Below, piece after piece: positions 11,748 through 45,314 of a stretch of 64,000 nt of DNA. A program made the position numbers and the translations under genes. A model generated the notes under the pieces. It was not told where the DNA came from. It searched no databases and saw only the letters and a program-made list of their open reading frames with translations. This stretch comes from an uncultured Acetatifactor sp. (GTDB taxonomy: Bacteria > Bacillota > Clostridia > Lachnospirales > Lachnospiraceae): contig CANREV010000012.1 in assembly GCA_947629645.1 (NCBI GenBank), positions 1-64,000 on the forward strand. Direction: 5' to 3'. Position 1 is the stretch's first letter, and the number at the start of each line of letters is the position of its first letter.

Positions 11748-12200
11748 TCACGCTTTCTTTCTCAGGCAAACCATTTTTTTGAAAAAAGCGCACACACGCA
11801 TGACGGGCATCCTCACCGGACGCAGAAACAGCCAGATACCCGCTGCAATTCGATATACCGGATTTTCCGTTGAATAGGTTTTACCCTTCCGCACAAAGCC
11901 AGTCAGAACGCCAATCAGCTGTGATTTTTCCAAAGGCCCCTCCACTTCATCCTGATTGTCACCCACCATATAAAACCCTTCCGGTCTGCGTTTACAGATC
12001 CGGTGCAATACCAGGATTCCCCCGCTCCTGCGGTACAAAACTACATCTCCCCGCTTCAGCTTCTCCACACAGACCGGCGCGATCACTGCCTGGTCCCTCT
12101 CCGGCACAAACATTGGATACATACTGTAGCCCTGTGGAGCGATCTGGATCGTTTTCCCTTCTGCTAACAGTTTTTCCACATCCGCCTTCTGTTTCTCCAT
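11748..12200 (-). CDS. ER-type (SipW-like) signal peptidase, S24/S26 family
   Basis: A 150-residue membrane-associated serine peptidase. Ser26 in GYSMYPMF is the expected nucleophile. The second signature is KRGDVVLY ... LVLHRI, where His66 replaces the lysine of prokaryotic-type signal peptidases; this is the ER/SipW type, which uses a Ser-His pair. GDNQDE (80-85) is the usual third box. Hydrophobicity is concentrated in the C-terminal third (residues 117-145) rather than at the N-terminus. It is divergent from the PqqD-HprK gene and close to two leader-bearing secreted-type proteins, so it is a candidate for trimming their leaders. AAGGATGACGGGAA precedes the ATG. Confidence 0.8.
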   Translation of the reverse strand: MEKQKADVEKLLAEGKTIQIAPQGYSMYPMFVPERDQAVIAPVCVEKLKRGDVVLYRRSGGILVLHRICKRRPEGFYMVGDNQDEVEGPLEKSQLIGVLTGFVRKGKTYSTENPVYRIAAGIWLFLRPVRMPVMRVCAFFKKMVCLRKKA

Positions 12201-12504
12201 TTCCCGTCATCCTTCCCAGCGTCTGACAACGCACATACTGCTATTGCCCGACACAGCTCTTCTCTTTTCTGGCTGAGTCTCCCGTTTCCAGTCGGCAAAC
12301 CCCGCAGTCGTAACATTTCATCCTTCGGCTAGACGGTTCCCCGCGGCCTTCTATCGTCCAACCTATTGTAGCATTTCCCTTGAAAGAATGCTATAATAAG
12401 ATAGCAAAGAATCTCAGGTCAGGTCTGATCCGGAAGTCATATGGCTAAACTGGCACGGAAGGAAATAAAAAGAAGGATCCACGGGGAGGCGGGAAACAGG
12501 GAAA
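12201..12504. other. divergent intergenic region before the PqqD-HprK gene
   Basis: This region holds a TATAAT element (12392-12397) on the plus strand, overlapped by a perfect inverted repeat TAGCATT-N11-AATGCTA (12369-12393). No consensus -35 stands at 17 nt, which would suit a regulated promoter. I see no other gene or RNA in it. Confidence 0.5.
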
Positions 12505-13797
12505 ATGCAAAGGCACAAAGAATTCGGACTGTTTGAAATCGCGGGCGTACCCTATCTGCTGCCCTTCGGACAACAGATCGCTGACCACAAAAGAGGCGTC
12601 CGTATCAACGATACCGGCAGATACATCTGGCAATTGCTGGGAGAAAACCTTACCATGGATGAGCTTTCCACACGCTTTCTCGCTCATTATGAGGCTTCCG
12701 GCCCGGAAATTCCTCAGCTTAAAGATGATCTGAAACAATTTCTTGAATTGCTTGACAGCTACGGCCTGCTGCAAAAAACGGTTTGTCCCGAATCGGACAG
12801 TTCTGAAAACCATCTGTCGAAAGCTGAATTACAACTCTTGTCAAAACTGCCGGATGACCGCGGCACACTATCAAAAAGCGATGCCGCTCCAGTCCGCTTT
12901 GGCGATTTTGACCACACTGATGAACCTATACAGCGATACCTTACCATCGGTGGGATGACACTGCTGCTTATCGGTCCCAAAGAAGCCTTTGCAGAGGAAT
13001 TGGAAGCCTTTGAAACTGCTTCCCCCTCCTCTGTGGATCAGACTGTCACAGTAATCAGCCATGCCCCCACCATGCAGCCCACAGGCAGACTTTTGATACA
13101 AAACGCAGAGTTATCCGTGATTCAGGGAGAATCCCACTATCTTTTTCTGTTTCCTGCTGCAGGCGAACTCTATGGGGCACAGCTTTCCCTGGACGGAAAA
13201 AAAGCCGTTTACTATTGTAAACCGCCCTACACCGAAGCGCTGCGTCAGGATCTGTTCCATGCGATCCGTCTTTCCTTTCTCTATCTTGCCCAGCTAAACG
13301 ACATGATAATCCTGCATTCCGCCTCCCTGCTCTATCGGGACAAAGCATGGCTGTTTTCCGGTCATTCCGGCGCGGGGAAGTCTACGCACACTCATCTCTG
13401 GAAAGAAGCGTTTGACGTTCCCCTGATCAACGGCGATCTCAATCTTCTATCGATGAGAGGGGACCGCCCCGTAGTCCACGGCCTTCCCTGGTGTGGTACT
13501 TCGGGAATTTCAGATACCCGTACCTATCCTTTGGGCGGTATCTTTCTAATAAAGAAATCATCTCAAAATCAGGCCGTCACCCTTTCTCAGGATCAGGCGC
13601 AGCTTCTGGTAACCCAGCGCCTGATTTCACCAAACTGGACGGAAGCTATGGTGGCAGAAAATCTCCGGCTTACCGCTAAAATGGCGCCCCACATTCTGAT
13701 CAACAGATTATACTGCACGAAAGACCCAGAGGCTGCCAATACGGCCAGACAGGCGATTGATGATTATTTAGATACGCAAAATGGCGAGAGACTTTAA
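12505..13797 (+). CDS. PqqD-like / HPr-kinase-like fusion protein
   Basis: A 430-residue cytosolic protein. Residues 1-90 form a PqqD-like domain (winged helix) with RINDTGRYIWQLLGE, MDELSTRF and LKQFLELLDSYGLL; PqqD domains bind leader peptides of ribosomally made, modified peptides. The C-terminal half resembles HPr kinase/phosphorylase, with the P-loop GHSGAGKST near residues 286-294 and INGDLNLL after it. Proteins of this kind occur with PF14907 nucleotidyltransferases (one lies at 22723) and with leader-bearing substrates. I infer that it recognises the shared leader of the two proteins at 15680-16695 and may phosphorylate or otherwise act on them. Its stop overlaps the convergent ABC gene by 4 bases. 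Confidence 0.82.
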   Translation: MQRHKEFGLFEIAGVPYLLPFGQQIADHKRGVRINDTGRYIWQLLGENLTMDELSTRFLAHYEASGPEIPQLKDDLKQFLELLDSYGLLQKTVCPESDSSENHLSKAELQLLSKLPDDRGTLSKSDAAPVRFGDFDHTDEPIQRYLTIGGMTLLLIGPKEAFAEELEAFETASPSSVDQTVTVISHAPTMQPTGRLLIQNAELSVIQGESHYLFLFPAAGELYGAQLSLDGKKAVYYCKPPYTEALRQDLFHAIRLSFLYLAQLNDMIILHSASLLYRDKAWLFSGHSGAGKSTHTHLWKEAFDVPLINGDLNLLSMRGDRPVVHGLPWCGTSGISDTRTYPLGGIFLIKKSSQNQAVTLSQDQAQLLVTQRLISPNWTEAMVAENLRLTAKMAPHILINRLYCTKDPEAANTARQAIDDYLDTQNGERL

Positions 13798-15590
13798 AAG
13801 CCTCTCACCATCTCATCTATCTCATCCCTGTTTAAAAGTACGCACTTTTTGTCCCTGATTGCGTATACCCTTGTGCAGGCTTCCAGAACCGTTGGACGGT
13901 GGGTGGTGACCACACAGGTTCTGGGATAGCTGTCCCGCATAATATTTTTCAGCACTCTCCGCTCCGTTGCCACATCCAGCGCCGAAGTCGCCTCATCCAG
14001 CAATAAGATCGGCGAATTTCGCAAAAGCGCCCTTGCAATGGAAAGACGCTGAGCCTGTCCCTCCGAAAATCCGCCGCCGCGCTCTTTGATCTGGCTGTCA
14101 ATTCCCTCCGGAAGCTTCTCCACAAAATCCCATGCGCAGGCCAGCTTCAGCGCCTCCACAATCTCCTCATCGGTGGCGTCCGGTTTTACATTTCGCATAT
14201 TTTCCGCGATGGTTCCCGAAAACATAGTATTCCCCTGAGGCACATAGGAAAACAGTTTTCTGGTGGCAGGCGTCAGAGGGATTTTTTCCATTGAATTCCC
14301 ACCCCGGCCGTCTTCCTCTTTTTTTGGTCCGCCACAGAGCACAGCCTCCCCGCCCTGGGACTGCATCAAAGACAGCATCACCCGGATCATGGTAGTCTTT
14401 CCCTCTCCGGAGGGGCCCACCAAAGCTATGATCTCATGAGGATAGACTTCCAGCGAGGCTTTGGCGAACACCTGGTTTCCATTCTGATAAGCATACTCCA
14501 TGTCACGGATCTCCATACCGATCCCCTGACTGCGGTATTTCTCCCAAAAGGCTGTCACTTCTTCCCCATGGCTGTAATCTTCTCTGGGCATTTCCACAAT
14601 ATCCATCAGACGTCCCGCGGAAGTGGTCAGACCAATGGCAGAAGGCACCAGGGAAGTGAGGTTATGCAGCGTCCCCGTCAGCGTGCCGGACAGCCCCAGA
14701 AACATCGTCATGGTACCGTAACTGATAGACCCGCTCCACACTCGGTATATGCCCCAGCCGTAAGCGGCATAGGAGACCAGCATTCCCACCACAGATAACA
14801 ATATAGACGTTCCCATGGACATTTTCTGGAAACTCAGCCGCATAGCGATAAATTCTTTCTGAAACCCTTTCAGCTTCTCCACATAAAACTGAATCAGATC
14901 AAAAGCTTTGATCGTCTGGATATTGGAAAAGGTTTCCTGATTAAATCCTGACATTTTTGCACCCATTGCGGCGCTTTTTTTGTTATTATTTACCATGCGG
15001 TTCATCAGGGTCTTTGACAAAAGCAGACTCACCGGCATTCCAAGAAAAGCAAACACCGCAAAAGTCCAGTCATAATAGATTACCATTGCAAAAGCGGTAA
15101 CAAAGCGGAACGTAAAAACCGCTAAATTAGGCAAAAAATTCAATACTCCGCCGGATATATTAGAAGCGTCCGATCCCCATCTGGTCAACAGATCACCTGT
15201 GTGATAATTGGTAAGGGATTCCCAATCCGTCACCAAAATCTTCTCAAATATATCCGATTTGATCTCCGCATCCACCTTCATACTGATATAGCTGGAGGCG
15301 TAATCTGATAGCTTATATAATAAAGTATTGCCAATTCCCAATCCGATCATAATGCAAAATGTCCGGATTACCATGCCCGTCTGATGTCCTGTGATAATAT
15401 CGACCAAGTCTCTGGAAACCAGACTGGATCCCAAGGATACTACAGAAGTAAACATTCCCAAAAGAGTATACAATATCATGATCAACCAGTACCTTCTCAC
15501 ATACTGGTAAATCCATTTTGTCTGTATCCACATTTCCTGAACGCGGCCTGCTTTAATCCTTCCAATGATAAAAAGCAATTTTTCTTTCAT
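13794..15590 (-). CDS. ABC exporter (membrane and ATPase domains fused)
   Basis: A 598-residue half-transporter that would work as a homodimer in the membrane. Six membrane segments lie between about residues 30 and 310; the ATPase domain starts near 350. It has Walker A GPSGEGKTT near 390, a non-standard signature FSEGQAQRLS near 507 in place of LSGGQ, and Walker B ILLLDEATSALD near 527. There is no N-terminal C39 peptidase domain, so any leader cleavage must be done by another enzyme. It lies downstream of the two leader-bearing proteins, separated by a terminator, and is probably their exporter. GGGAGACCTT precedes the ATG at 15590. Confidence 0.9.
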   Translation of the reverse strand: MKEKLLFIIGRIKAGRVQEMWIQTKWIYQYVRRYWLIMILYTLLGMFTSVVSLGSSLVSRDLVDIITGHQTGMVIRTFCIMIGLGIGNTLLYKLSDYASSYISMKVDAEIKSDIFEKILVTDWESLTNYHTGDLLTRWGSDASNISGGVLNFLPNLAVFTFRFVTAFAMVIYYDWTFAVFAFLGMPVSLLLSKTLMNRMVNNNKKSAAMGAKMSGFNQETFSNIQTIKAFDLIQFYVEKLKGFQKEFIAMRLSFQKMSMGTSILLSVVGMLVSYAAYGWGIYRVWSGSISYGTMTMFLGLSGTLTGTLHNLTSLVPSAIGLTTSAGRLMDIVEMPREDYSHGEEVTAFWEKYRSQGIGMEIRDMEYAYQNGNQVFAKASLEVYPHEIIALVGPSGEGKTTMIRVMLSLMQSQGGEAVLCGGPKKEEDGRGGNSMEKIPLTPATRKLFSYVPQGNTMFSGTIAENMRNVKPDATDEEIVEALKLACAWDFVEKLPEGIDSQIKERGGGFSEGQAQRLSIARALLRNSPILLLDEATSALDVATERRVLKNIMRDSYPRTCVVTTHRPTVLEACTRVYAIRDKKCVLLNRDEIDEMVRGF

Positions 15591-15613
15591 AAGGTCTCCC
15601 TTTTCCCTTATGT

Positions 15614-15647
15614 AAAAACAGCACCGCCTGCATAGCAAGCGATGCTG
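15614..15647 (-). terminator. terminator between the leader-bearing gene pair and the ABC exporter
   Basis: On the minus strand CAGCATCGC (15647-15639) pairs with GCGGTGCTG (15627-15619), nine pairs including one G-U, followed by TTTTT. It lies 33 nt past the second small gene and 24 nt before the ABC start. It should keep exporter levels well below those of the two small proteins, with readthrough supplying the exporter. Confidence 0.8.
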
Positions 15648-15679
15648 CCAAACATCTGTCGTCTGTTTGTTAATCGTGA

Positions 15680-16129
15680 TCAATCAAATCCGCCCTGAAC
15701 ATTGACCGCATGGGTACAGGTAATGCCACTGCTTATAACATCAATCGTCTTATAATTATTCGACCAGATTTTTAACAGTGTGTTAAAGTTATCTCCAGAA
15801 TAATAAGCGTTTGCATGGCTCTCACGCGTCAGCGTTACAGTACTCCCACTTACAGACGCCGTAAATCCCTCAAATTCTGCGGATGTTACTGTGTCAGAAA
15901 ATACAACCGTAACAACAGTCTTCGTGGAAATGTGGGTAACATTCTGACTATGCGTTGCCGCTACACGGAAAGTGCAATAACCGCCTGCATCCGACTGATC
16001 CTTTGTAACGCTCACTGTCCAGCAATCAGATGATGTCTCTCCGTCAGCGGTAGTAGCACCGCTTGCCGCATACACGCCCTCAGCCAACTCCTCGTTTGCA
16101 AGAACGATAGGCTTTACATAACTTTTCAT
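15680..16129 (-). CDS. leader-bearing small secreted-type protein (beta-sandwich-like), paralogue 2
   Basis: A 149-residue protein whose first 24 residues match those of the neighbouring gene at about 17 positions: K, Y, KP and VL, then NEEL, EG, Y and ASG. This segment is not hydrophobic, so it is not a Sec signal; it resembles the leader of an exported, processed peptide. The rest is Ser/Thr/Val-rich alternating beta sequence with three cysteines (in DCWTV, YCTFRV and ITCTH), a VSGSTVTLT stretch and a LLKIWSNN segment, giving the look of a carbohydrate-binding-module-type sandwich. GAGGATGAGGAT precedes the ATG. It shares the promoter at 16761 and ends before a terminator. Function unknown. 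Confidence 0.75.
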   Translation of the reverse strand: MKSYVKPIVLANEELAEGVYAASGATTADGETSSDCWTVSVTKDQSDAGGYCTFRVAATHSQNVTHISTKTVVTVVFSDTVTSAEFEGFTASVSGSTVTLTRESHANAYYSGDNFNTLLKIWSNNYKTIDVISSGITCTHAVNVQGGFD

Positions 16130-16293
16130 ATCCTCATCCTCATTTCTACACTGTTTTGTTTGTTCACCGGAGCCTGTGAACACAGTGTAACCACAAACTC
16201 CATCTATCTCATTAGCAAGTTACTTATGCCTGACTTGGAAGCTTATCTAAAACAACGCGCATGCGCATTATTTTCATCAGATTACGCAATACA

Positions 16294-16695
16294 TCATCTT
16301 ACTTCAACAAAATCACTATCATATGAAACAACAAGCTGAATCTCAATGGCGCTTCCTGCCGCAATCGTTCCGCCTTCCCCCGGCGTGATCGTAATCGTAT
16401 CTCCGCTCAAAGAAGCGCTGGCCTGATAACTATTATAAATCTGTGCATTGGTTGCATGTCCGGAAGCTACCGAAAGGTTAACCTTCCAATCCGTCATATT
16501 CTCGCTTCCGCTGTTAGCCACTGTCACAGTATATGAATTTACCTTATAATACTCGTGACCCTCCGAATCCAATCTCACGCCGGATACCGATACGCCGGTA
16601 CCTGCTGCTCCGCCGCTATTATCACCGCTGGCTGTATAAATACCCTCTGTCAATTCTTCATTTACCAACACCATTGGCTTTATGTAATCTTTCAA
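16294..16695 (-). CDS. leader-bearing small secreted-type protein (CBM2-like), paralogue 1
   Basis: A 133-residue protein starting with TTG behind a strong GGGAGGAGG site 10 nt upstream. Residues 1-24 are the same leader-like segment as in the next gene, ending EGIYTASG. After a Gly-rich joint, residues 34-133 resemble a CBM2-type beta-sandwich: NSYTVTVANSGSENMTDWKV with the conserved tryptophan, SLSGDTITITPGEGG and AAGSAIEIQLVVS. The ASG at the end of the leader fits the small-residue -3/-1 rule of signal peptidases. It is the first gene after a consensus promoter, so it should be made in large amounts. Its fold is inferred by eye only, and its role is unknown. Confidence 0.78.
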   Translation of the reverse strand: MKDYIKPMVLVNEELTEGIYTASGDNSGGAAGTGVSVSGVRLDSEGHEYYKVNSYTVTVANSGSENMTDWKVNLSVASGHATNAQIYNSYQASASLSGDTITITPGEGGTIAAGSAIEIQLVVSYDSDFVEVR

Positions 16696-16760
16696 AGTAT
16701 AAATACCTCCTCCCTAATCAAAACCCCATAAAATTTTCTTAGTAATCTACGATTATTTTC

Positions 16761-16790
16761 ATTATAAGTCCAGAGGTCAAAATATGTCAA
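16761..16790 (-). promoter_or_regulatory. consensus promoter of the leader-bearing gene pair
   Basis: On the minus strand TTGACA (16790-16785), an 18-nt spacer and TATAAT (16766-16761) are both perfect hexamers, about 65 nt before the TTG start at 16695. It is among the strongest-looking promoters in the window. Confidence 0.88.
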
Positions 16791-22722: not shown

Positions 22723-23934
22723 TTACCCGTCCTCATTCTCCAGATCCATCCGCCGCAGCAGTCTGCTGCGCTCTCCCGCATTGCGCAGAATATCTTTTAC
22801 TTTTCCACGGTGCAGTTTCCGGTTGTTGCACAAAAACACTGCCAGCGTAATGACCCAGAGGGCGGGCCAGAGAATGACGTAAGGCGATGTTTTGGGATGA
22901 TTCATTTTCATCTGGTAATGAAATTCTTTTAAATACGCTCCCAGACTGTTTCTTTTTACAATCACCATCCGGTCTTTATCCGCTTCTCCAAATTCTTCCG
23001 CCGTGAAAATATCACACAGAAAATCCGCCGCGAATTTTTTGTCATATCCGTTTCCAAAAGGCAGATCACTCCGCAGGCCTAAAAAATCCTTGCAGACGAC
23101 CGTAACCGCCTCCGCGAAGTTCCAGACATGACAATCCTGCGCCAGTCTCATAAACTCCGGCAGGATTTTAAGCGCAGTCTCCCGATTCCAAAACACTACC
23201 CAGTCGCAGAGAAGCTTCAGTCCGAATCCGGCCCGCAAAAAATGCTGCAGCATATGAAGCAGCAGTTGCAGCGCCTGATAGGCTTCCGGCAAAAGAGGCA
23301 TATCGATCCCCATACATTTCCGATATTCCTTCCTCTCAAAGCAATCGGAAAGCAGTCTCTCCATCCCCTCGTTGATACGCTCATCCTGAAAGGGTTCCGC
23401 CAGCATGGTGTGAAGTTCCACATCGATGCCGTCCCTGGACCTGCAGGCAAGATGATGGTTGGCGTGCTGGTTCTTTTTGACGAAAAACTGATTTTTCTCC
23501 AAAACCTGTACCGCCGTTTCCATTTTTTCCCTCTGGATCAAAAGATCCACATCCCCCGACTTTCTGGCTTCCGGCACAGGATAAAGCTCCGCCACGCCGC
23601 AGCCTTTGAGCACCAGCACGGGAATACCCGCCTGTTCCAGCGTCCTGACCAGATATCGGGTCAAAAAAAACAAACGGTAACTCTGTTTCACAGTGACTCT
23701 GGAAACAGATTCCACCAGTTCCAACCGGTCAGCCCTCAGAGGCTCCCCCTCCCACTTTTCGCACAACTCTTCATACAGCAGCGGAATCACCTTATGCTGC
23801 TTTGCCATATCTATCACTTTCCCCAGATCTGCCTCTCGGGAAAGTTCTCTTGAAATCCGGAAACGTCTCCCCGTCAAAGCCTGTCCCAAAAGTCCGCACA
23901 ACAGCCTCTGCTCCCTGCTTATCCTCTCGCTCAT
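22723..23934 (-). CDS. nucleotidyltransferase family protein (PF14907-like)
   Basis: A 403-residue protein of the uncharacterised NTP_transf_5 family. The nucleotidyltransferase signature is seen as VLVLKGCGVAELYP near residue 115 and KSGDVDLLIQ near residue 130, with an LHTML segment later that may give the third acidic/His position. The second half is helical. Members are often found beside PqqD/HprK-like proteins and leader-bearing substrates, and such a protein lies at 12505. It is translationally coupled to the upstream glycosyltransferase (ATGA overlap), with AAGGAGATATC before the ATG. The substrate is unknown; an adenylylating or other nucleotide-transfer role is only inferred. Confidence 0.8.
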   Translation of the reverse strand: MSERISREQRLLCGLLGQALTGRRFRISRELSREADLGKVIDMAKQHKVIPLLYEELCEKWEGEPLRADRLELVESVSRVTVKQSYRLFFLTRYLVRTLEQAGIPVLVLKGCGVAELYPVPEARKSGDVDLLIQREKMETAVQVLEKNQFFVKKNQHANHHLACRSRDGIDVELHTMLAEPFQDERINEGMERLLSDCFERKEYRKCMGIDMPLLPEAYQALQLLLHMLQHFLRAGFGLKLLCDWVVFWNRETALKILPEFMRLAQDCHVWNFAEAVTVVCKDFLGLRSDLPFGNGYDKKFAADFLCDIFTAEEFGEADKDRMVIVKRNSLGAYLKEFHYQMKMNHPKTSPYVILWPALWVITLAVFLCNNRKLHRGKVKDILRNAGERSRLLRRMDLENEDG

Positions 23935-29837: not shown

Positions 29838-31226
29838 ATGAACAAAGCGATTGCTGCCGCCGTCCTGATCTTCTCGTTTCTGGCGGAAAATATTCAATAT
29901 ATCAATGAATATCCGTTTACCTACACCCCTGTGCTGTATCTTGAAAGCACAGCTTATCTGGACAATCCCTATATTGGATTTTACCATATTTACGGATATA
30001 TTTTAAAGGATGAGATTGCTTACGCATCACCAAAGGACGTCCCCTTTGTGCCAGATCCCGAAACCACTCAGACAAAAGAACGGCTGGTGCAGATACAGAT
30101 CAACCTCTGCCGTTTTCAGGAACAGTCTCTTACGGAAACCGCCCTGTCCCAGCTGGATACCATCTTATCCGCATGGTCCGAAACGAATTACAGCCTGCTG
30201 CTGCGTTTCCTCTACGATTGGGACGGCAATGCGCCTAAAACAGAACCGAACGACATCTCTGTAATCCTGCAGCACATGGAACAGCTGGCGCCCGTGTATA
30301 ACAAATACGCCGATCACATTTTTATGATTCACGGGCTCTTCACCGGCAACCACGGCGAAATGCACCATACTCACTTTGACAGTCCGGAAGATCTGAAGCT
30401 GCTTGCCTCAAAACTGGCGGAAACTGCGGATCCTTCCATCTATCTGTCCGTCCGCACCCCCTACCAATGGCGTACCATCACGGGAGCGGACAATTACGAA
30501 GAACTCTCCGCCATGCCGGACAGCCCTTATTTAAACCGATTGGGGCTTTTTAACGATGGCATGTTCGGCACGGAAGCTGACACCGGCACCTATTCCCGTC
30601 CGCGGGCGGAAGAAATCGCATATCAGGACGCCCTCTGCCAGACGGTTCCCAACGGCGGCGAGGCCGTGATCGACAACCCTTACAACGATCTGGATAACGC
30701 TGTGGCAGATATGAAACTGATGCACGTCTCCTACTTAAACAGCGTTCATGATCCTTCCGTCATAAACAAATGGAAAAACACCATATACACCGGTCAGGAT
30801 GTTTTTAACGGCGTCACAGGATTCGAGTATGTCCGAAATCACCTTGGCTACCGTTATGTGCTTCGTTCCTCGTCCATCGTCCGAGACTATATCAACGGAC
30901 AGGTCAAACTGCGCGTTGCCATTGAAAATGTTGGTTTTTCCAAAAGTTACCGTCCTTTTTCGTTCTGCCTGACCTTGCGAAACACCCGGACGCAGGAAAC
31001 TTTTTCCATCCCTCTGAAAGAGGATTCCACATGCCTTGTCAGCGGGGAAACCGCCTCGTTGGAAGTTCCTCTCGCAATGGAAAACTATCCGGCCGGAACT
31101 TACGAGCTGTATTGGCAGACTCTGGACGAAACCTTTGGCGAACCTATCCGTTACGGAAATAATCTGACTCTGACGGACCTTGGTTATCTGCTGGGCAGCT
31201 TACGGATCAAAACTTCCCAGGAATAG
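29838..31226 (+). CDS. DUF4832 family secreted/surface protein, paralogue A
   Basis: A 462-residue protein with an N-terminal hydrophobic segment (residues 3-17) that could be a short signal or anchor. The body resembles a TIM-barrel glycosidase-like fold of the DUF4874/DUF4832 type: LVQIQINLCRF, LLLRFLYDWDG, HIFMIHGLFTGNHGEMHHTHF with the characteristic G-x-x-G-E-M-H, and GLFNDGMFG. The last 110 residues form a beta-sandwich. Such proteins occur with polysaccharide genes and may cleave or bind the polymer; no activity is established. AAAGGAG lies 7 nt before the ATG. It meets its paralogue tail to tail with a 27-base overlap. Confidence 0.78.
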   Translation: MNKAIAAAVLIFSFLAENIQYINEYPFTYTPVLYLESTAYLDNPYIGFYHIYGYILKDEIAYASPKDVPFVPDPETTQTKERLVQIQINLCRFQEQSLTETALSQLDTILSAWSETNYSLLLRFLYDWDGNAPKTEPNDISVILQHMEQLAPVYNKYADHIFMIHGLFTGNHGEMHHTHFDSPEDLKLLASKLAETADPSIYLSVRTPYQWRTITGADNYEELSAMPDSPYLNRLGLFNDGMFGTEADTGTYSRPRAEEIAYQDALCQTVPNGGEAVIDNPYNDLDNAVADMKLMHVSYLNSVHDPSVINKWKNTIYTGQDVFNGVTGFEYVRNHLGYRYVLRSSSIVRDYINGQVKLRVAIENVGFSKSYRPFSFCLTLRNTRTQETFSIPLKEDSTCLVSGETASLEVPLAMENYPAGTYELYWQTLDETFGEPIRYGNNLTLTDLGYLLGSLRIKTSQE

Positions 31227-32462
31227 CCGCTCCTTTGCTCCCTCATTGGCGAACCGGACCGTTTTAAGATCTCTGACACGCTTAAGCCCCGCGTAAAGAC
31301 GCACGCCGCTTTGTATCCCTTTCTCCTCCAGAGGGATATGAAGCATCAGGCTTTTTCCTGCTTCCAGCCGCCCCAGATCACAGTTTAGGGGAATTTCCCG
31401 CTCCCTGTCATCTTCTTCTATAAAAAGCAGGAACAGGATCTCCTCCGCAAAACAGGCAAATCCCCGATTGGCAATCTTTGCGCTCAGACAGATTTTCTTT
31501 CCCTTTCTCTCACAAGAAACCTTTTCCACCACAAACCGATAGCCCATATGAGCTTCGATATAATCATATAAACTGACATCTGGACGGTATAACGTATCTT
31601 TCCATTCCTGAAGCCTGCTCTGCTCGTGCACGCAGTTAAGATAGCTGACATGAAGTCTGCAAAGACGCTCCACAGTCTCCGAAGGCGTGATGCCTTCCTC
31701 GCCGTTTAACGCTTCTCCGCCAAAAGGCACTTTCCCCGCCAATTCTTCCATAAACGCCATTTCTTCGTCCGGAAGCCAGGATTTGCGCCATCCGGCGTCT
31801 TTTCTATTCTGCGTGCCGAAAGTCCCTAAGTGCGTTGGCGAGGCGAAAATAGCATCGTCAAAACAGCCTATCAGATTTTCTTCCACGCTTCCCTCCGGCT
31901 GCGTGATCCGGTACTGCACCGGCTTTCTCACCGCGAAACGGATCTTTCTCTGCGTCTGGGTCAGAAACGTCTCTGTAAGCTGCTGCAGATATTTTTCCGA
32001 CAGGAATTTGGAGGTGTGCATCTCCCCCCAGCTTCCTACCAGTTGTCCCTGAAAGACGAGAATATGGCTGCTGTGGCGTATCAGGACAGGCGCAAGCTGT
32101 TCGATGTGCCGAAGTACCTGAGAAAAAAGCGAAGGTTCCCGCTCCATCCCTTTCCCTTCCGTGTCGTAGGCGATCCTCAGAATGATATCCTTTCCGCCAT
32201 CGGCAAAAGACTGCAGGATCTCATCTATCAAGACCAAGGATTCTTCCCCCATATCACTCTCTCTGCAGGAACCGATATCGATCAGCACCAGCGCCAGCGC
32301 TTCCTCCGGATACAAAACGGGCGGAAGGCTGCAGCCGCTTAGATCTCCCAAAACATATGTATAAATGCGATACCATCCTCTTCCGCAATTCACCACATTT
32401 CCCGCAATCTCACGAAGCTCATTTTTGTGAAAGCAGTATTTCTTCTTAGAAAAAAATGTCAT
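31200..32462 (-). CDS. DUF4832 family protein, paralogue B
   Basis: A 420-residue relative of the gene at 29838. Matching blocks are DIILRIAYDTEGKG, ILVFQGQLVGSWGEMHTSKF (the G-x-x-x-x-W-G-E-M-H core), CFDDAIFASPTHLGTFG, and RLHVSYLNCVHEQS. Unlike paralogue A it has no N-terminal hydrophobic segment, so it may act in the cytosol or be exported in another way. Its start overlaps the upstream GT2 gene by 17 bases, which places it as the last gene of the long operon that begins with the Pel-type genes. Function unknown. Confidence 0.75.
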   Translation of the reverse strand: MTFFSKKKYCFHKNELREIAGNVVNCGRGWYRIYTYVLGDLSGCSLPPVLYPEEALALVLIDIGSCRESDMGEESLVLIDEILQSFADGGKDIILRIAYDTEGKGMEREPSLFSQVLRHIEQLAPVLIRHSSHILVFQGQLVGSWGEMHTSKFLSEKYLQQLTETFLTQTQRKIRFAVRKPVQYRITQPEGSVEENLIGCFDDAIFASPTHLGTFGTQNRKDAGWRKSWLPDEEMAFMEELAGKVPFGGEALNGEEGITPSETVERLCRLHVSYLNCVHEQSRLQEWKDTLYRPDVSLYDYIEAHMGYRFVVEKVSCERKGKKICLSAKIANRGFACFAEEILFLLFIEEDDREREIPLNCDLGRLEAGKSLMLHIPLEEKGIQSGVRLYAGLKRVRDLKTVRFANEGAKERLFLGSFDP

Positions 32463-33237
32463 CCTCTGCCTCTCCCATTCCGATATGCAGCACCTTGATC
32501 CGATACAGCACCGCCAATATGGAAAATATCATACGGAACATATAGACGAAGGGTTTAAGGCCGGAATGCATGCTGACCCCATAACCCCTGTTGTGCATTA
32601 TCGCCGGTATTTCCACCACCCGATACCCCAAAAGCAGCATCTGGATCAACATATTGGCATCGGGATATTTATTGTCAAAATTTCCAAACCTGGAATAGTA
32701 CAGCGCCGCCCGGCAGCTTAACCCCTGGAGCCCTGTAGTAGGATCCTGTATTTTGCGTCCGGTGGCAGCTTTGATACAGAAGCGGAACAAAGCGTAAGCA
32801 GCCTTTTTGGAGGACGATACGGCAAAATCCCCGCTTCCTTCCATGAAACGGGAACCCAGCACAATATCAGGGCATCGGCCATCCTCCCCGGGCGTCTTAA
32901 GCTTATCATAGATGAAGGGAATATTGCAGACATCATGTTGTCCGTCCGCATCCATCTGGATGATATACTTATATTTTCTCCGGATCGCATATTTATACCC
33001 CAGCTGGATCGCGCTGCCATATCCCAGATTAAACACATTGGTCACCAGCGTATAACCGTGTTTCTTTACGATCCAGTTGGTGGAGTCCGAAGACGCGTCA
33101 TTCATCACCAGTACATCCGCGATCTTGGCGATCTCCGGCGATGAGAGTTTTCTCAGGACGCTTTCGATATTTCGTTCTTCATTGTATGCCGGTATAATGA
33201 TCAGCAAGTCCTTCTGTTGTCCGTATTTCACATCCAT
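32446..33237 (-). CDS. glycosyltransferase family 2 (dolichyl-phosphate-mannose-synthase type)
   Basis: A 263-residue GT2 enzyme of the DPM1/UppP-sugar-synthase type, which loads a sugar onto a polyprenyl phosphate at the inner membrane face. It shows IIIPAYNEERNIESVL, VMNDASSDST, NLGYGSAIQLGYKYA and QMDADGQHD, the catalytic DxD, near residue 96. The C-terminal 40 residues are hydrophobic. The sugar it loads could be used by the GT-C-like protein at 39629, which would need a lipid-linked donor. A DUF2304 protein, a frequent partner of such enzymes, lies two genes upstream. Confidence 0.9.
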   Translation of the reverse strand: MDVKYGQQKDLLIIIPAYNEERNIESVLRKLSSPEIAKIADVLVMNDASSDSTNWIVKKHGYTLVTNVFNLGYGSAIQLGYKYAIRRKYKYIIQMDADGQHDVCNIPFIYDKLKTPGEDGRCPDIVLGSRFMEGSGDFAVSSSKKAAYALFRFCIKAATGRKIQDPTTGLQGLSCRAALYYSRFGNFDNKYPDANMLIQMLLLGYRVVEIPAIMHNRGYGVSMHSGLKPFVYMFRMIFSILAVLYRIKVLHIGMGEAEDDIFF

Positions 33238-33246
33238 CTCTCCCTT

Positions 33247-34455
33247 TTAGTTGCTGTCCAGCAATCCCGTTAAAAGCCTGATATCTTCCTCATACGCAAT
33301 CTTTTTACAGGCGGCCGCCCGACCCAGTCGCTCCCGCAGCTTCCCGTCCTGCAAAAGCTTTACAATAGCTTCCTTTACATCCCCAGGCGACAATTTGCAA
33401 AGGAGGCCGTCCTCGCCATGAATGATCTGTTCCCTGTTGCCGGTGCAATCCGATGCCACAATGGCGCAGCCGATGACCTGCGCTTCCTGAACGGCAATGC
33501 TTTTCCCCTCAAATCCGGTGGCATGGACGTACAAATCCGTCTGTTTATAATAGGGGAAAGGATTCTCCACAGCCCCCATCAGAATAAAATCCTCTTCCAG
33601 ACCCCATTCTTCAATCTTTTTTTCCAAAGCGCGGCGTTCCTCTCCTTCTCCCAGCACATACCATCTCGCCCTGCAGCCGCTCTCTTTCAAAAGTTTCATA
33701 GCTTCAATGGCAACGGGATAGGCCTTCTGTTTCGTAAGCCTGCCTACCGTCAGAATGCGAAATCCCTGATAACCATCCTGAAATCCTCCTTCCAGGGACG
33801 CTTTTTCAAGAATCTCACTGCGGTTTATCATATTGTGGAATATCTGCGTTCTGGGAGCGCATTCAGGGTACACTTCCAGAAACTTTTCCCGAATCTCCTC
33901 CGCAATGGGAAACAGCGCGTCAAATTTCAGATAACAGTCTTTGTCAAGTTTTCTTGTATAACCCGCCTGACTGTAATCTATATGGATAAAAGCCGCTTTC
34001 TTCTTCGCTTTCACATGATCCGCCACATAATATGCAGCGCCGCCTTCTATAAATGCTACCGCCAGATCATATTGTGCCTCTATCCTCAGCCCGCCGTCCG
34101 AAAGCACCCTCCAAAGCAGCTTGTCAATCTGCACTCTGCGCCGCAGCAGCATCGACTTTAAATTTCCGCACAGATAGGGAAATAACCGCAGCAGAGATGC
34201 CCGATGAAACAGCGCTTTCGCCACCGTTTCCGCCATATGCACACGTCCTCTGGCGGAGTGCACGGAGCAGCTGTTAAATCGCTTGTTCAGCAGGCGGACC
34301 GTCTTAGGTAATTTCGATACCAGCTCCCCCTGTCCCATCAGCACATACAAATCGATATCGCAAAAATCCTGCAGCTTTTTTAGCAGCTCTATCAGCGCTG
34401 TCTCCGCTCCCGCCAGCCCCAAGGTATTCATTACAACAAGAACACGTTTATTCAT
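33247..34455 (-). CDS. glycosyltransferase family 4
   Basis: A 402-residue GT-B glycosyltransferase. LGLAGAETALIELLKKL at the N-terminus is the acceptor-side loop, ILTVGRLTKQKAYPVAIEAM near residue 245 opens the donor domain, and EGKSIAVQEAQ near 320 is the EX7E-type motif. The start at 34455 is chosen because AAGGAGG lies 9 nt upstream; the longer reading to 34503 has no such site. It overlaps the end of the DUF2304 gene by 8 bases, so the two are coupled. Confidence 0.9.
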   Translation of the reverse strand: MNKRVLVVMNTLGLAGAETALIELLKKLQDFCDIDLYVLMGQGELVSKLPKTVRLLNKRFNSCSVHSARGRVHMAETVAKALFHRASLLRLFPYLCGNLKSMLLRRRVQIDKLLWRVLSDGGLRIEAQYDLAVAFIEGGAAYYVADHVKAKKKAAFIHIDYSQAGYTRKLDKDCYLKFDALFPIAEEIREKFLEVYPECAPRTQIFHNMINRSEILEKASLEGGFQDGYQGFRILTVGRLTKQKAYPVAIEAMKLLKESGCRARWYVLGEGEERRALEKKIEEWGLEEDFILMGAVENPFPYYKQTDLYVHATGFEGKSIAVQEAQVIGCAIVASDCTGNREQIIHGEDGLLCKLSPGDVKEAIVKLLQDGKLRERLGRAAACKKIAYEEDIRLLTGLLDSN

Positions 34456-34837
34456 GGGCGTCCGCCTCCTTGTGGGAGGCAAGTTCCTGAAGAATGCTTT
34501 CATTCTCCTGATTCAGCAAGGAAACGTGCATCGCAAGCTCCTGATTTTTCATGATAAGAATGGAAATTGCCAGACTGAACCCAAACAGACTAAGCACCAG
34601 CACCCCTCCTAAGAAGATGATTACACCAAATACTACGGCAGGCTTTTGCCCCGCGTTCAGCAGGACAATACCGGCAACCAGCAGGCAAAGCGCGGCAACA
34701 CCCCAGATCATGCCGAAATTCTCCGTCATCTTATGTCTCGCATAAGCAAGAAAGCTCCATATCATAAGCAGTATACTCAGCACGATCATCACAATACCCG
34801 CTATTTTCGCTATTTCCATCATTTTCATTGCCCCCAT
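34448..34837 (-). CDS. DUF2304-like small membrane protein
   Basis: A 129-residue membrane protein with three hydrophobic segments (about residues 7-25, 41-60 and 66-93) and a charged C-terminal tail of about 35 residues that could form a coiled coil. This matches DUF2304 proteins, which are encoded next to GT2 enzymes in polysaccharide clusters; their role may be to anchor or regulate the GT2 partner. Several in-frame ATGs crowd the start; 34837 is chosen because AGGAACAG lies just before it, but 34828 is also possible. Confidence 0.65.
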   Translation of the reverse strand: MGAMKMMEIAKIAGIVMIVLSILLMIWSFLAYARHKMTENFGMIWGVAALCLLVAGIVLLNAGQKPAVVFGVIIFLGGVLVLSLFGFSLAISILIMKNQELAMHVSLLNQENESILQELASHKEADAHE

Positions 34838-34855
34838 TCTGTTCCTGCCCAACGT

Positions 34856-36304
34856 TCAGGCATGCCGCGTTTTATCATACACTTTTGCCTCGGGCCGCTT
34901 TCCCTTCTCAACAGGGAACAGCGTCCCTTTGCAGAAAATGTGCACGTCCAAATGCTTCTCCACCCAGCGCAGCCTCGCGTAAGCCACCGCCAGTCCCGTA
35001 AAACTGCCCGCTACCAGTCCCAGACCATACCAAAGTTCCGTCAGGTTTCTGGATGCCAGGCTTCCCAGAAAAGTAACCAGACAAAAGGATACAGATGTCA
35101 GTATTGCCCCGGTCAGATCATTGAAATAATAGAGAAAAATAATCTCCGCATACATCACAAACAAGATAAAATATCCGGCCGCAAGACAGGGATAAATCCG
35201 CAGCGTCATCCCGGCAAAACCAAGTCTTGGCAGGAAAACCAACATGACCAGGTACACAATCACGGATATGATAAACTGAATCCGCACCAGATTCAAAAGC
35301 TCACCGGAAAGCTGACGGAACATTCTGTCTTTTGTGTTCTGAATATCCTGCCAGCGTCCGCCCGTTACAGCCTCTGAATACATCTTATACCGCTCGTGGA
35401 AATGCATCTCCACTCTGGAAATAAAAATCACAGTAGCGGAAATATTGGTAAACATCGCCAGACAGGTAGCCATATCATACACCGGCGCCATCACGAAAGA
35501 ATCCGCTACGACCATCTTAAGCCGCGTATCCCAGAACACAAAATTGTGAACATAAAGCCCAAGCGTATATCCGAAATTTACCACCACCAGCTGCCAGTAT
35601 CTCTTAAAATAGGCAAATACTTTTTTGTATCGGTTGCTGTTCTTTTTAAAGTACCGGCGGATAGTGGACATCTCCAGAACCGCCGTCAACAGAAATCCGA
35701 TGCTGAGCGCGAACAGCATACTGTAGGATAACCCTGCGTTAAACACCTTCACCAGCACAAACGCCACCACAAAAGCCAGGACCATGCCTCCGAAAAAATA
35801 TAAGGATATCTTGGAATAATCCTTGCAGACGGACAGATACAGCATAGAGTAAAACACCAGCACCAGCGCGATATACCCGCAGAAACCGGTAAAAACATAA
35901 TGCAGCGCCACTTCCCCCACAAAATATTCCCACACGCAGAAAGGAATTCCTAAAAGACAACTCAACGCTATGTTCAGGAACAGCCCTGTATAATAGCAGG
36001 GCATGATGTCTTCGTATGCCTCATCGTAAATGACATCGGACAGATAGCGCGACAGAACCGCGTTGAAAGGGGATGCGGTCAGCAGACCGAAAATGAAGAT
36101 ATACAGCACCGTTGCGGAAAATAAATTTCTCTGGGCATACCCCAGTTTATCATATCCCAGCACAATGCTCATCAGCATAATATTTCCAATTACAACGAAC
36201 ATAGGGGCCACTGTGACCATCATACTGTAGCCAAAGCCCACCAGATTCATTGCAATGCTTCCTTTTCCGTAGATCTTGTTCAGCCTTACGCCTATTCCTG
36301 CCAT
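34856..36304 (-). CDS. pelG: Pel exopolysaccharide transporter PelG
   Basis: PelG is a 12-segment membrane protein of the flippase superfamily that works with PelD, PelE and PelF to export Pel polysaccharide. The 482-residue sequence matches its usual length. Features are AGIGVRLNKIYGKGS at the start, ATVLYIFIFGLLTASPFNAVLSRYLSD near residue 65-90, and LYVHNFVFWDTR near 255. It lies directly downstream of PelF (20 nt gap) as in other Pel operons. The C-terminal tail is short and charged. Confidence 0.92.
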   Translation of the reverse strand: MAGIGVRLNKIYGKGSIAMNLVGFGYSMMVTVAPMFVVIGNIMLMSIVLGYDKLGYAQRNLFSATVLYIFIFGLLTASPFNAVLSRYLSDVIYDEAYEDIMPCYYTGLFLNIALSCLLGIPFCVWEYFVGEVALHYVFTGFCGYIALVLVFYSMLYLSVCKDYSKISLYFFGGMVLAFVVAFVLVKVFNAGLSYSMLFALSIGFLLTAVLEMSTIRRYFKKNSNRYKKVFAYFKRYWQLVVVNFGYTLGLYVHNFVFWDTRLKMVVADSFVMAPVYDMATCLAMFTNISATVIFISRVEMHFHERYKMYSEAVTGGRWQDIQNTKDRMFRQLSGELLNLVRIQFIISVIVYLVMLVFLPRLGFAGMTLRIYPCLAAGYFILFVMYAEIIFLYYFNDLTGAILTSVSFCLVTFLGSLASRNLTELWYGLGLVAGSFTGLAVAYARLRWVEKHLDVHIFCKGTLFPVEKGKRPEAKVYDKTRHA

Positions 36305-36323
36305 GATTTTTCTCCCCTGTCAG

Positions 36324-37745
36324 TTACATCCAGTCCGCTATATCGCGGTAAATCTTCTGATAAGCCGCCTTCATATCTTCTATCTTATAGCGCGACATCA
36401 TACGTTTATAACCGTTCTCTCCCATTTCCACGCGCTTTTCCTTACTGTACGCCAGTTCCAGGATCGCCGCCGTAATCTCCTCCACATTCATCACATGGGT
36501 CAGTATCCCGGCATCGCCGAAAGAATCACCCTCGCCATAAATCAGCCCCCGGCAATTTCCGACATCCGTTGCGATAGCCGGTTTATGCGCCGCATATCCC
36601 TCCAGAATGGTCAATGGCTGGCCCTCGCTGACGCTGGTCAGTATGGTCATATCCATCTGCCAAAGATATTCCGGCACATTGACCCTTCCGGTGAACACCA
36701 CATCCTTTACCTCCAGCGTCTGAACCAGTTCCATACATTCTTCCGCATATTCCGGATCCTCGTCCGTGGGTCCCATGATCCAGAGTTTTAACGCCGGCAC
36801 TTTCTCTTTGGCAAAAGCAAAAGCCCTGATCAGCGTCTTCACGTCCTTGATAGGCGTAACACGAAGCACCGCTCCCACATGGATCATGTCTTCCTCCAAA
36901 GTCCGCTTCATATCTTCCGTCACCACGAACCTGGAAGCATCGATCCCATTAGGCGTGACCATGGTGATCTCCCTGGGACAGCCCAATTCGATCTGCAGTT
37001 CCCGCGCATGTTCGTAAAGACTGGTCACAAGCTCCGCCTCGCTGTAAGCAAGCTTTGACATTTTTTTAAACTGTTCGATCCAGATATTCTTATAGATGCC
37101 TTCTACCCACTTTGCGCGGATCAGCTCTTCCTCCCGCTCTCTGGTATAAATACCATGCTCTGAGATCACCAGGCTGCAATGATACTTGTTTCTTGCCATA
37201 CAACCCAATATCCCCGCGTATCCGGTCGCTACACAATGATAGAGATCCGCCTTGGGCACATCCATCCTCATAGTCAGAAACAGCGGCAGATAGATAGAGC
37301 GCATGGTCCACAGGAAATCCGAAAACACAACCTCCGGATACCGCAGCTGGTAGCATTCCCGCACTGCCCTGAAAAAATCCGGTCCCATCAAAAGCTTATT
37401 CAGCGAAAACTTCTTTTTGGAAAACAGCTCAAACAGCGGTTTCCACTTTACATTCTGATTGAGCAGCAGACTTTTTAAAGCCTCATATTCCTCTTTGTTC
37501 AGCCGCTTCTGCCTCTTTCCGTCCCCTTCCCTGACCCAGTCGCTGTCTTCCAGATACAGTTCGTACACCTGCGTCAGATTATCCGGCAGTTCATAGGCAA
37601 ACTTTCCGCGAAAAGAGCGATTCGCCACAATCGTCAGCAGGATAAATTCATGTTCGGGAAATGACTTTATGATACTGTGTATCCAACTGGATACTCCGCC
37701 TACCACGTAGGGGTAGCAGCCTTCTGCAACCATACATATCTTCAT
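36324..37745 (-). CDS. pelF: Pel polysaccharide glycosyltransferase PelF
   Basis: PelF is the cytosolic GT4 enzyme that polymerises Pel, a partly acetylated GalNAc/GlcNAc polymer, from UDP-sugars. The 473-residue protein shows the PelF N-terminus CMVAEGCYPYVVGGVSSW, EHGIYTREREEE near residue 197, VTPNGID near 270, and EGQPLTILEGYAAHKP, the EX7E-type motif, near 380. The start at 37745 has AGG 9 nt upstream; a longer reading to 37778 has poor spacing. It sits between the DUF2194/PelA-like gene and pelG, the order known for Gram-positive Pel operons. Confidence 0.93.
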   Translation of the reverse strand: MKICMVAEGCYPYVVGGVSSWIHSIIKSFPEHEFILLTIVANRSFRGKFAYELPDNLTQVYELYLEDSDWVREGDGKRQKRLNKEEYEALKSLLLNQNVKWKPLFELFSKKKFSLNKLLMGPDFFRAVRECYQLRYPEVVFSDFLWTMRSIYLPLFLTMRMDVPKADLYHCVATGYAGILGCMARNKYHCSLVISEHGIYTREREEELIRAKWVEGIYKNIWIEQFKKMSKLAYSEAELVTSLYEHARELQIELGCPREITMVTPNGIDASRFVVTEDMKRTLEEDMIHVGAVLRVTPIKDVKTLIRAFAFAKEKVPALKLWIMGPTDEDPEYAEECMELVQTLEVKDVVFTGRVNVPEYLWQMDMTILTSVSEGQPLTILEGYAAHKPAIATDVGNCRGLIYGEGDSFGDAGILTHVMNVEEITAAILELAYSKEKRVEMGENGYKRMMSRYKIEDMKAAYQKIYRDIADWM

Positions 37746-37801
37746 CTTGTTATTCCTACTTCCGTTCATTTCAGGCATCCTCTTTCTGAATGCCGTCTCT
37801 C

Positions 37802-39616: not shown

Positions 39617-39628
39617 TTTATCCTCTCC

Positions 39629-41950: not shown

Positions 41951-41983
41951 TGCTTATCTCCTTCGTTAACAGCAGACGGCCAA

Positions 41984-43030
41984 TCAGCCGAATACTCTGA
42001 TCAGATCCAACGTATCTCTGTCAATGACAATGTCGGAACTCTTCAGCCTGTCCATGACTGCAAAGAACTTTTCCCTGTTCTGAATACTGAAATACAGCTT
42101 TAACTGAAGCGTGTACGAAGTCAGCTCCTCCGGATACATCTCCATACAGCGCTCGCACCACGTCTCCATGCGTTCAAATTCTTCAAGGCGCAGCAGACGG
42201 ATGGCAATCCACTCTATATATTCGCAGTTGAGACGATAACGATGCTCTTCACTCTTATAAAGCCATGTGCAGGCCTCCTCCATCATGTCTACATAGGTCC
42301 TTTGCTCCATGTCCGGAAACACTTCCTGACTGAGCACGCCGTTCATATATTCTATCATGGCGCAGGCATATTCCGGCGCCTTTTCGTCCCCTTTGTGAAG
42401 CGCATTGTAAAATTCCTGCGATTTCTGCCTGAAATCGTTCAACGCGTCTCTCAACACGGAAGCGGCGTAGTGAGAAGTTTCCGTATCTTCACTGTTTAAG
42501 GCGAGAGAGATGGTGGCAAGAGATTTTTGCACGTCTCCTTTCACCACATCCATGACCAGCGAGCGCAGGCTTTCCTTGTCCGCCACCGCCAGTGCCTCCT
42601 CGATAGGCACCCGGTTTCGCTCGCTCTCCTCGTCCGCCTTTCTGCGGGTGACCACTTTTTCCTTCCCGAAGATCACGTCAGTCAGATCCGCCTTCGTGCG
42701 GAAAAACAGAACATACATCAACTGGGTTGACACAAAAAACAGGACTCCCACCACAGGACAGAGAAACATGACCAAAGCCTTAAACAGATAACCTGTCCTG
42801 CTTGGTATCTGGTCTTTCAACAAAACTTCTTCCTTCTCCCGGTCTTCCCGCTCCTGATTATCATCCTCCTTTTCATCCTCAGCCTTTGACAGCAGTTCAT
42901 CTTCCGGCTCTTCAGAGACCGGTTCCCCGGTCTTTGCCGTCTGTATGACACATCCCCAGATAAAATAGGCGACAGAAATCAATGTGTTGATGATCAGAAT
43001 CAGGATAAATACTTTTTCAGCAGTCGTCAT
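41984..43030 (-). CDS. pelE: PelE-like membrane protein with TPR-type region
   Basis: A 348-residue protein. A membrane segment at residues 5-28 is followed by a very acidic/basic stretch (about 35-75, rich in E, D and K), a second membrane region at about 82-112, then a cytosolic helical region to the end with TPR-like pairs (HYAASVLRDALNDF, YIEWIAIRLLRLEEFERM, TSYTLQLKLYFSIQN). In known Pel systems PelE has this layout and links PelD to PelF/PelG. Its start overlaps the end of the pelD-type gene (ATGA), and GGAGG lies upstream. The assignment rests on layout and position. Confidence 0.75.
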   Translation of the reverse strand: MTTAEKVFILILIINTLISVAYFIWGCVIQTAKTGEPVSEEPEDELLSKAEDEKEDDNQEREDREKEEVLLKDQIPSRTGYLFKALVMFLCPVVGVLFFVSTQLMYVLFFRTKADLTDVIFGKEKVVTRRKADEESERNRVPIEEALAVADKESLRSLVMDVVKGDVQKSLATISLALNSEDTETSHYAASVLRDALNDFRQKSQEFYNALHKGDEKAPEYACAMIEYMNGVLSQEVFPDMEQRTYVDMMEEACTWLYKSEEHRYRLNCEYIEWIAIRLLRLEEFERMETWCERCMEMYPEELTSYTLQLKLYFSIQNREKFFAVMDRLKSSDIVIDRDTLDLIRVFG

Positions 43031-45297: not shown

Positions 45298-45314
45298 AGT
45301 TTCTCTTGCTCCCG

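Follow-up and report, generated by a model that had tools for sequence, protein, structure and literature searches.

Gene content of the locus

The window analysed here is a stretch of 64,000 nucleotides (positions 1 to 64,000 of contig CANREV010000012.1, assembly GCA_947629645.1) from the 3.15-Mb genome of an uncultured Acetatifactor sp. Five genes stand together in it (Table 1). Two of them encode small proteins with a common N-terminal leader, called precursor 1 and precursor 2 below. The others encode an ATP-binding cassette (ABC) exporter, an S26-family serine peptidase and a protein in which a PqqD domain is fused to an HprK-like kinase; this fusion gene lies on the plus strand and the other four genes on the minus strand. 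What might such a set of genes do? We read the five genes as a maturation and export cassette for small folded proteins, built like the pathways of ribosomally synthesized and post-translationally modified peptides (RiPPs) and resembling the family of linear polyphosphorylated peptides (LPP), with the PqqD domain as RiPP recognition element (RRE). As the best explanation of the whole, this reading is given a probability of about 0.7.

Table 1. Genes and other features discussed, with their positions in the window
Feature	Position	Strand	Remarks
S26 leader peptidase, 150 residues	11748..12200	-	catalytic S26, H66, D81; no clear membrane anchor
PqqD (RRE) and HprK/PEPCK-like P-loop kinase fusion, 430 residues	12505..13797	+	RRE ~1-95; kinase ~146-425, GHSGAGKSTH
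MsbA-like ABC exporter without C39 domain, 598 residues, ATG at 15590	13794..15590	-	
Precursor 2, 149 residues, leader and CBM2-like beta-sandwich	15680..16129	-	
Leader of precursor 2, MKSYVKPIVLANEELAEGVYAASG	16058..16129	-	predicted cut between A22 and S23, by analogy with LPP
Precursor 1, 133 residues, TTG start, leader and CBM_2 domain	16294..16695	-	
Leader of precursor 1, (M)KDYIKPMVLVNEELTEGIYTASG	16624..16695	-	
NTP_transf_5 nucleotidyltransferase, likely partner	22723..23934	-	6 kb from cassette
Exopolysaccharide genes (PelG, DUF3492 glycosyltransferase, DUF2194, DUF4832, others), context only	31200..45318	-	
Second, discrete PqqD protein	45315..45596	-	heads exopolysaccharide block

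A sequence-only reading of the locus had claimed a common, non-hydrophobic N-terminus in front of divergent bodies, and this description holds. The two precursors share 17 identities in their first 24 residues, while a pairwise BLAST of the bodies gives at best 29% over 51 residues (E 8e-4 as a single comparison). The TTG start of precursor 1 is preceded by GGGAGGAGG. For 85 leader-bearing open reading frames (ORFs) from this and related loci, the best 12-residue Kyte-Doolittle mean within the first 40 residues has a median of 0.78 and a maximum of 1.72; judged by hydropathy alone, none of the leaders has the hydrophobic segment of a Sec-type signal. There are 86 leader ORFs in the full collection, one gene being counted twice (loci L029 and L085), and 76 of them match a pattern in which columns 16-20 are set beforehand. 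In the free columns of these 76, Tyr4 is kept in 70, Pro7 in 72, Ala22 in 70, Ser23 in 75 and Gly24 in 75, and column 21 varies among Ala, Thr, Met and Leu. The leader can thus be written as KxYxKPxVL followed by an EG[VI][YF]xASG end, with the spacing Px12[YF]xASG. As ASG is followed by Cys in some precursors, a lipobox was considered; it was rejected for want of a hydrophobic stretch and of a constant distance to the Cys. Two divergent precursors were also seen, at L029:8086-8574 (the same as L085) and L153:8783-9292 (the same as L099), with leader ends AEGIYMASG and AEGMYAGSG and no adjoining S26 gene.

Both cargo bodies had been called CBM2-like. For precursor 1 the name stands by Pfam, its body being above the gathering score of CBM_2 (PF00553; 27.3 vs 24 bits), and six of nine aligned members match CBM_2 at E 0.01. 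For precursor 2 it stands by predicted fold and not by Pfam: a scan of its body gave no match and the PF00553 gathering score was not reached, yet the AlphaFold2 model, a structure prediction that the sequence-only reading had proposed for the cargo, is a beta-sandwich with CBM2 domains as its top PDB matches, at modest scores. Profile searches of the PDB gave one weak match for the precursor alignment and no match for the leader alignment. Is the cargo then one family? This was rejected. By single linkage at E 1e-3 the 85 bodies split into groups of 69, 11, 3, 1 and 1, the largest being joined through chaining; therefore the leader is common to dissimilar bodies. At other loci the bodies behind it include a Cys-rich type. 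Cys36 is present in 47/47 aligned precursors and Cys138 in 42/47, which suggests a disulfide.

The PqqD domain expected in the fusion is found by Pfam (37.4 vs 23.4 bits). The attached kinase part resembles HprK_rel_A weakly, its 15.4 bits falling short of the curated 200 bits of the HPr-rel-A system (TIGR04352). Forty-five aligned proteins, including that of the window, match HprK_rel_A in 17 cases, HprK_rel_B in 10 and ScmC in 18 (E <= 0.01), and in a kinase tree 15/15 fused kinases form one clade with support 99/98. The exporter had been described as lacking a C39 peptidase domain; ABC_membrane and ABC_tran are present and C39 is not among its Pfam matches. Of the SipW-type peptidase, the Ser/His/Asp residues of the S26 family are there and the SipW label fits only loosely, since the model NF046067 gives 12.5 vs 190 bits. 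The best family match is TIGR02228 at 33.6 bits, below the cut-off of 51.85. Residues S26, H66 and D81 are invariant across nine aligned sequences, and the best 19-residue hydropathy is 1.24, close to the C-terminus. The four matches from a PDB profile search with the S26 alignment, all to a ribosome-biogenesis protein at E ~0.09, are regarded as chance.

Distribution of the cassette

Do the leader and its neighbours occur together elsewhere, as the sequence-only reading had proposed to check? Among 101 genomes of the genus, the leader was found in 45 (profile search, E <= 0.01; the match in G080 is weak and spans 9 columns). The full fusion was also found in 45, that is 47 matches minus genomes G055 and G104, where the match is to the kinase part; in G012 and G109 it is cut by contig ends. 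A cassette-type S26 peptidase, meaning 170 bits or more, was found in 44 (46 matches minus G055 at 89 bits and G104 at 118 bits). All three occur together in 42 genomes, none in 54 (including G055 and G104) and a part in five. The five are G001 with leader and S26, the leader contig being of 9,355 bases; G080 with the leader match only; G012 with fusion and S26, ending at the contig edge; G048 with leader and fusion; and G099 with the fusion, accompanied by a divergent leader as seen in L153. In a sample of 200 genomes of the family, 13 have the leader (E <= 0.001), 13 the fusion (E <= 1e-100) and 12 both, with G261 having the leader only and G211 the fusion only. Fisher tests of leader against fusion give 1.4e-23 in the genus and 2.8e-17 in the family. 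In 299 genomes of the phylum, the full fusion (E <= 1e-15) is in the source genome only and the kinase part alone in six others. Among 40 chosen relatives the fusion is in nine besides the source genome; in G012, counted among the nine, a contig end truncates it. The cassette is real, common within the genus and patchy in the family.

For gene neighbourhoods, 79 loci were compared, the best of at least 578 confirmed relatives; they were picked by kinase patterns and are not an unbiased sample. A leader ORF is present in 61, an ABC gene in 63, an S26 gene in 60, an NTP_transf_5 gene in 41, and cargo, ABC and S26 together in 48. Where the sequence extends 5 kb or more on each side (45 loci), the corresponding numbers are 37, 38, 36, 27 and 32. 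A part absent at the locus may sit elsewhere: the G008 locus (L029, L085) has no S26 gene, and one lies on another contig of G008. The S26 gene nearest to the fusion is at a median of 124 bp (57 loci) and the nearest ABC gene at a median of 19 bp (61 loci). Carriers among the 79 loci include Anaerobutyricum hallii DSM 3353, Fusicatenibacter saccharivorans, Blautia luti and Coprococcus catus.

This arrangement bears on two other explanations. One is a cytosolic sugar sensor, in which the CBM-like domain and the PqqD-kinase protein together form a regulator inside the cell and no product leaves it. The absence of a Sec signal by hydropathy and the S26 peptidase without a clear membrane segment would suit it; the ABC gene so close to the fusion and the Cys pair, which would point to a disulfide, do not, and we consider it scarcely credible. 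The other is that the products are exported bacteriocin-like effectors, their bodies diversified by competition among gut bacteria. Patchy distribution, diverse bodies and Cys-rich bodies are what one would expect of effectors. Against this, 69/85 bodies fall in one CBM2-like group (by chaining), polysaccharide genes lie near many of the 79 loci, and no immunity gene was noticed, although a search aimed at immunity genes was not made. Effectors of this kind seem very unlikely.

A leader pattern standing elsewhere without these neighbours had been named beforehand as a finding that would speak against the system. Taken literally there are five such genes, G005:C64, G061:C55, G111:C48 (known as a leader-profile match only), G073:C17 and G049:C24, with no cassette gene seen within 8.5-15 kb, yet all five genomes carry the fusion elsewhere. 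Four of the five genes are near a contig end, and only the G061 gene is well inside its contig. They can be understood as for RiPP precursors that act in trans.

Recognition of the leader

Which part of the fusion would recognize the leader? Over 56 loci, leader distances correlate with those of the RRE domain (r 0.49), the kinase (0.41) and the ABC exporter (0.38). With the kinase allowed for, the partial correlation of leader and RRE is 0.30 (p 0.0005); with the RRE allowed for, that of leader and kinase is 0.03 (p 0.35), and partial Mantel tests of this kind may be over-optimistic. Leaders of the same locus are 69% identical against 56% between different loci (p 0.0005; 23 pairs from 21/59 loci), and same-locus bodies 21% on average. 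In the PDB the fusion profile matches lasso and LPP RREs, namely TbiB1 (E 9e-5), LppB (9x8z, 0.0095) and 9x90 (0.026). N33, D70 and F74 of LppB contact the Pro and Tyr of the leader, according to the LPP report (PMC13381572). With the residue numbering matched via an offset of 18, they align with N35, D75 and F79 of the fusion, of which D75 is invariant and N35 and F79 are kept in at least 90% of 45 proteins. Because leaders covary with the PqqD domain, and the kinase adds nothing once that domain is allowed for, the comparison supports recognition of the leader by PqqD.

The kinase itself might still be regulatory. In that case the locus would be a leader-directed secretion route, with the kinase sensing energy or sugar state and the cargo leaving unmodified; the folded cargo, the ABC exporter and the conserved Y/P leader motif are in keeping with it. 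However, fusing the RRE to the kinase delivers the leader to the kinase itself, and the characterised HprK-like kinases of LPP and lasso systems phosphorylate the peptide, as far as the accessible parts of both reports go (PMC13381572, PMC9266682). Regulation in place of modification is therefore distinctly unlikely.

A separate observation concerns histidine kinases at related loci (L082:6960-7772, also L089, L062, L026, L073, L116, L125, L027, L087 and L092). They start with tails like MEKKRYxKPQxISREEL, resembling the RRE-binding motif of the leader, and [YF]xxP is kept in 10/10 distinct loci (BLAST matches), down to 42% identity. At L030, L026 and L027 such a kinase adjoins a discrete PqqD protein and a response regulator, just upstream of a precursor gene. 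The sensor histidine kinase is possibly docked on the PqqD protein.

A model of maturation and export

LPP RiPPs, the nearest system described so far, were reported in May 2026 (Popov et al., PMC13381572). They have an RRE, an HprK-like kinase, a SipW-like leader peptidase, an NTP transferase and an MsbA-like exporter, and lie in capsule loci. Their precursors are of 35-200 residues with the leader motif YxxPxVLxHQxIxFETxxS. The leader end is given there as Px9Fx[T/A], with LppA cut after T-1 and the phosphorylated Ser as third residue after the cut. The HprK-like LppK phosphorylates a core Ser, and LppS, with catalytic S29/H68/D93, cuts the RRE-bound leader.

The cassette of the window may work in a similar way. 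KxYxKPxVL of the leader would dock in the PqqD domain of the fusion, and docking would place the precursor before the attached HprK-like kinase. The kinase would then phosphorylate a Ser, most likely Ser23 of [YF]xASG, which is the only Ser common to the precursors because nearly all leader rows have it and the bodies are without detectable mutual similarity at E 1e-3. The S26 peptidase would cut the RRE-presented leader, most likely between A22 and S23. The sequence-only reading had placed the cut after ASG; by analogy with the LPP leader end, a cut behind YxA and in front of the conserved Ser is more likely, because Px12[YF]xA fits that end with three more residues. The MsbA-like ABC protein would export the CBM2-type domain. 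On the phosphate, the nucleotidyltransferase NTP_transf_5 would probably install a sugar or a nucleotide, after the example of PsmN of pseudomycoidin, which is reported to put a hexose onto phospho-Ser directly or with host help (PMC9266682). The product would probably act with the exopolysaccharide encoded alongside. As for the RiPP-pathway logic proposed at the outset, it is well supported by co-occurrence, by leader-RRE covariation and by the conserved leader-contact and catalytic residues; what does not stand is its complete novelty, given the LPP precedent.

Several points weigh against this reading. G048 and G099 have the fusion without S26, and a genome-wide S26 search of G099 at 1e-10 gave no match. 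G138 and G164 of the family sample have full-length distant fusions (E ~1e-59) without a leader match. Shared ancestry is incompletely removed by the Fisher and Mantel tests. Cargo, ABC and S26 are not together in 31/79 loci, nor in 13 of the 45 that have 5 kb or more on each side; NTP_transf_5 is in little more than half of the loci, and the ABC gene has variable orientation to the fusion (31 same, 30 opposite). The identity of the kinase as HprK depends on weak profile matches. The cut could be placed in either of two registers. In LPP the phospho-Ser lies one residue closer to the leader Tyr than Ser23 does here, and therefore Ser23 stays in the product under either register. An LPP-like mechanism for the fused branch is itself inferred, and the kinase and S26 peptidase are far from the LPP-type ones in loci L173 and L174 (scores below); therefore the LPP biochemistry is transferred by analogy.

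Exopolysaccharide context

Why would the product be tied to polysaccharide? PelG in the exopolysaccharide block of the window scores 494 bits, and the block has a DUF3492 gene, a family which we take to be linked to PelF. A Pel-specific link was rejected, as PelG or PelF was found by tblastn in only 6/79 loci; therefore the link concerns exopolysaccharide loci at large, PelG being present in the block of the window. NTP_transf_5 often adjoins the precursor genes in related loci. In L023 it is joined to a region resembling Polysacc_synt (22.3 bits, cut-off 28.2), and in L030 and L062 it forms one protein with a glycosyltransferase. Because of these fusions, the exopolysaccharide neighbours and the reports on LppK, LppS and PsmN, we infer that the exported domain is phosphorylated, perhaps glycosyl-phosphorylated, and associated with the matrix.

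A bolder scenario is a RiPP-type line making glycosyl-phosphorylated proteins. Phospho-Ser would be the N-terminus of the CBM2-like domain, NTP_transf_5, which some relatives have fused to a flippase-like or a glycosyltransferase domain, would build on the phosphate, and the exported domain would be linked to the neighbouring exopolysaccharide by a phosphodiester, or would prime or cap it. Gut Lachnospiraceae would then have a matrix unit in which protein and polysaccharide are covalently bound. This is speculative, and we regard it as unlikely.

Two further features were seen in the window. The discrete PqqD protein adjoins the exopolysaccharide genes at their head. Three closely similar PD-(D/E)XK transposase-family genes lie between the cassette and NTP_transf_5 (17224-18099, 18677-19564 and 20056-21003), the family PF12784 being assigned by Pfam for the first of them.

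Significance

RiPP machinery is usually seen as acting on small, mostly unstructured cores. If our reading is true, the logic of leader, RRE, peptidase and exporter extends to whole folded domains; Gram-positive gut bacteria would have a way to deliver surface or matrix proteins that does not depend on Sec, with a leader that could be programmed for the export of folded cargo. The presence of the cassette in named gut species makes it experimentally accessible. It also sharpens the question why RiPPs with HprK and NTP transferase occur in polysaccharide loci. The folded cargo is the feature expected to surprise specialists, the general kind of system having been described in 2026 (PMC13381572).

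Comparison with known systems

C39-type ABC exporters carry out leader-dependent export of small polypeptides with double-glycine leaders; unlike them, the exporter here has no C39 domain and the serine peptidase is separate. SodX (TIGR02754), the maturation protease of nickel superoxide dismutase, is an S26 peptidase that takes a non-Sec leader off a folded protein. To our knowledge its system has no RRE, kinase or exporter, and the cassette S26 scores 20 bits with its model against a cut-off of 63.25.

Lasso peptides of the paeninodin and pseudomycoidin type (PMC9266682) are similar in the YxxP or WxxP leader, the RRE (discrete in lasso systems), the HprK-like kinase acting on Ser and the NTP transferase that puts a hexose on the phosphate. 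The cargo here is not a lasso core. A genome-wide search at E 0.001 for the lasso B2-type protease family PF13471 gave no match, and no asparagine-synthetase-like lasso cyclase is among the scanned cassette genes, a genome-wide search for it not having been made.

By profile score the closest kinase, S26 peptidase and RRE are in clusters of PqqD, radical SAM enzyme and HprK-like kinase, at L171:8314-10896, L172:2195-9517, L173:4843-9647, L174:4437-9219, L175:5902-10726, L176:4880-9368 and L113:8079-12667 (radical SAM checked by Pfam in L113 only). ABC is present in 6/7 of them and S26 in 4/7, and several have YxKP-type precursors of 49-61 residues, another likeness. Unlike the cassette here, they add the radical SAM enzyme and have a discrete RRE and such short precursors. 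A term search of the open literature found no description of these clusters. Nor was a Lachnospiraceae cassette of the present kind found among the matches listed from the open literature searched (titles and abstract beginnings).

With LPP the cassette shares the YxxP half of the leader, an HprK-like kinase (by weak profile matches), an MsbA-like exporter and capsule or exopolysaccharide loci. It also shares the occurrence of several precursors that have a leader in common and differ in their C-termini, an S26 leader peptidase with invariant S/H/D close to the RRE gene, and an NTP transferase gene nearby. Could it be plain LPP in Lachnospiraceae, with longer precursors and an incidental folded body? 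The same functions, the leader half, the context and the LPP precursor range of 35-200 residues all favour this. However, the RRE, discrete in LPP, here makes up the N-terminal part of the kinase protein; the leader keeps YxxPxV[LIV] and has EG[VI][YF]xASG in place of the FET half; it is about three residues longer (Px12[YF]xASG against Px9FxT); and a folded domain of some 90-130 residues serves as cargo. A direct comparison comes from the G411 and G325 loci (L173, L174), where an LPP-type precursor, YVKPMII...IQFETLVS, stands beside a PqqD/radical-SAM/HprK set, the LPP labels being from motif match and adjacency; L173 also has a lasso-like precursor and a cyclase-like gene, as read from sequence. 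With the profiles of the present family, S26 scores are 142 (L174), 119 (L172) and 111 (L113) bits for the radical-SAM type and 22 and 19 for the LPP type; kinase scores are 174 for radical-SAM, 43 for LPP and 15 for lasso; RRE scores are 53 and 47, 26 and 15 in the same order. In the kinase tree the lasso kinase and, grouped with it, both LPP-type kinases lie beyond a 93/86 branch, outside the clade of fused kinases, a placement that depends on only two LPP rows with long branches. Plain LPP is thus improbable in our view. The cassette would work in the manner of LPP, but we would rather class it as a branch of its own, marked by the fused RRE and by folded cargo.

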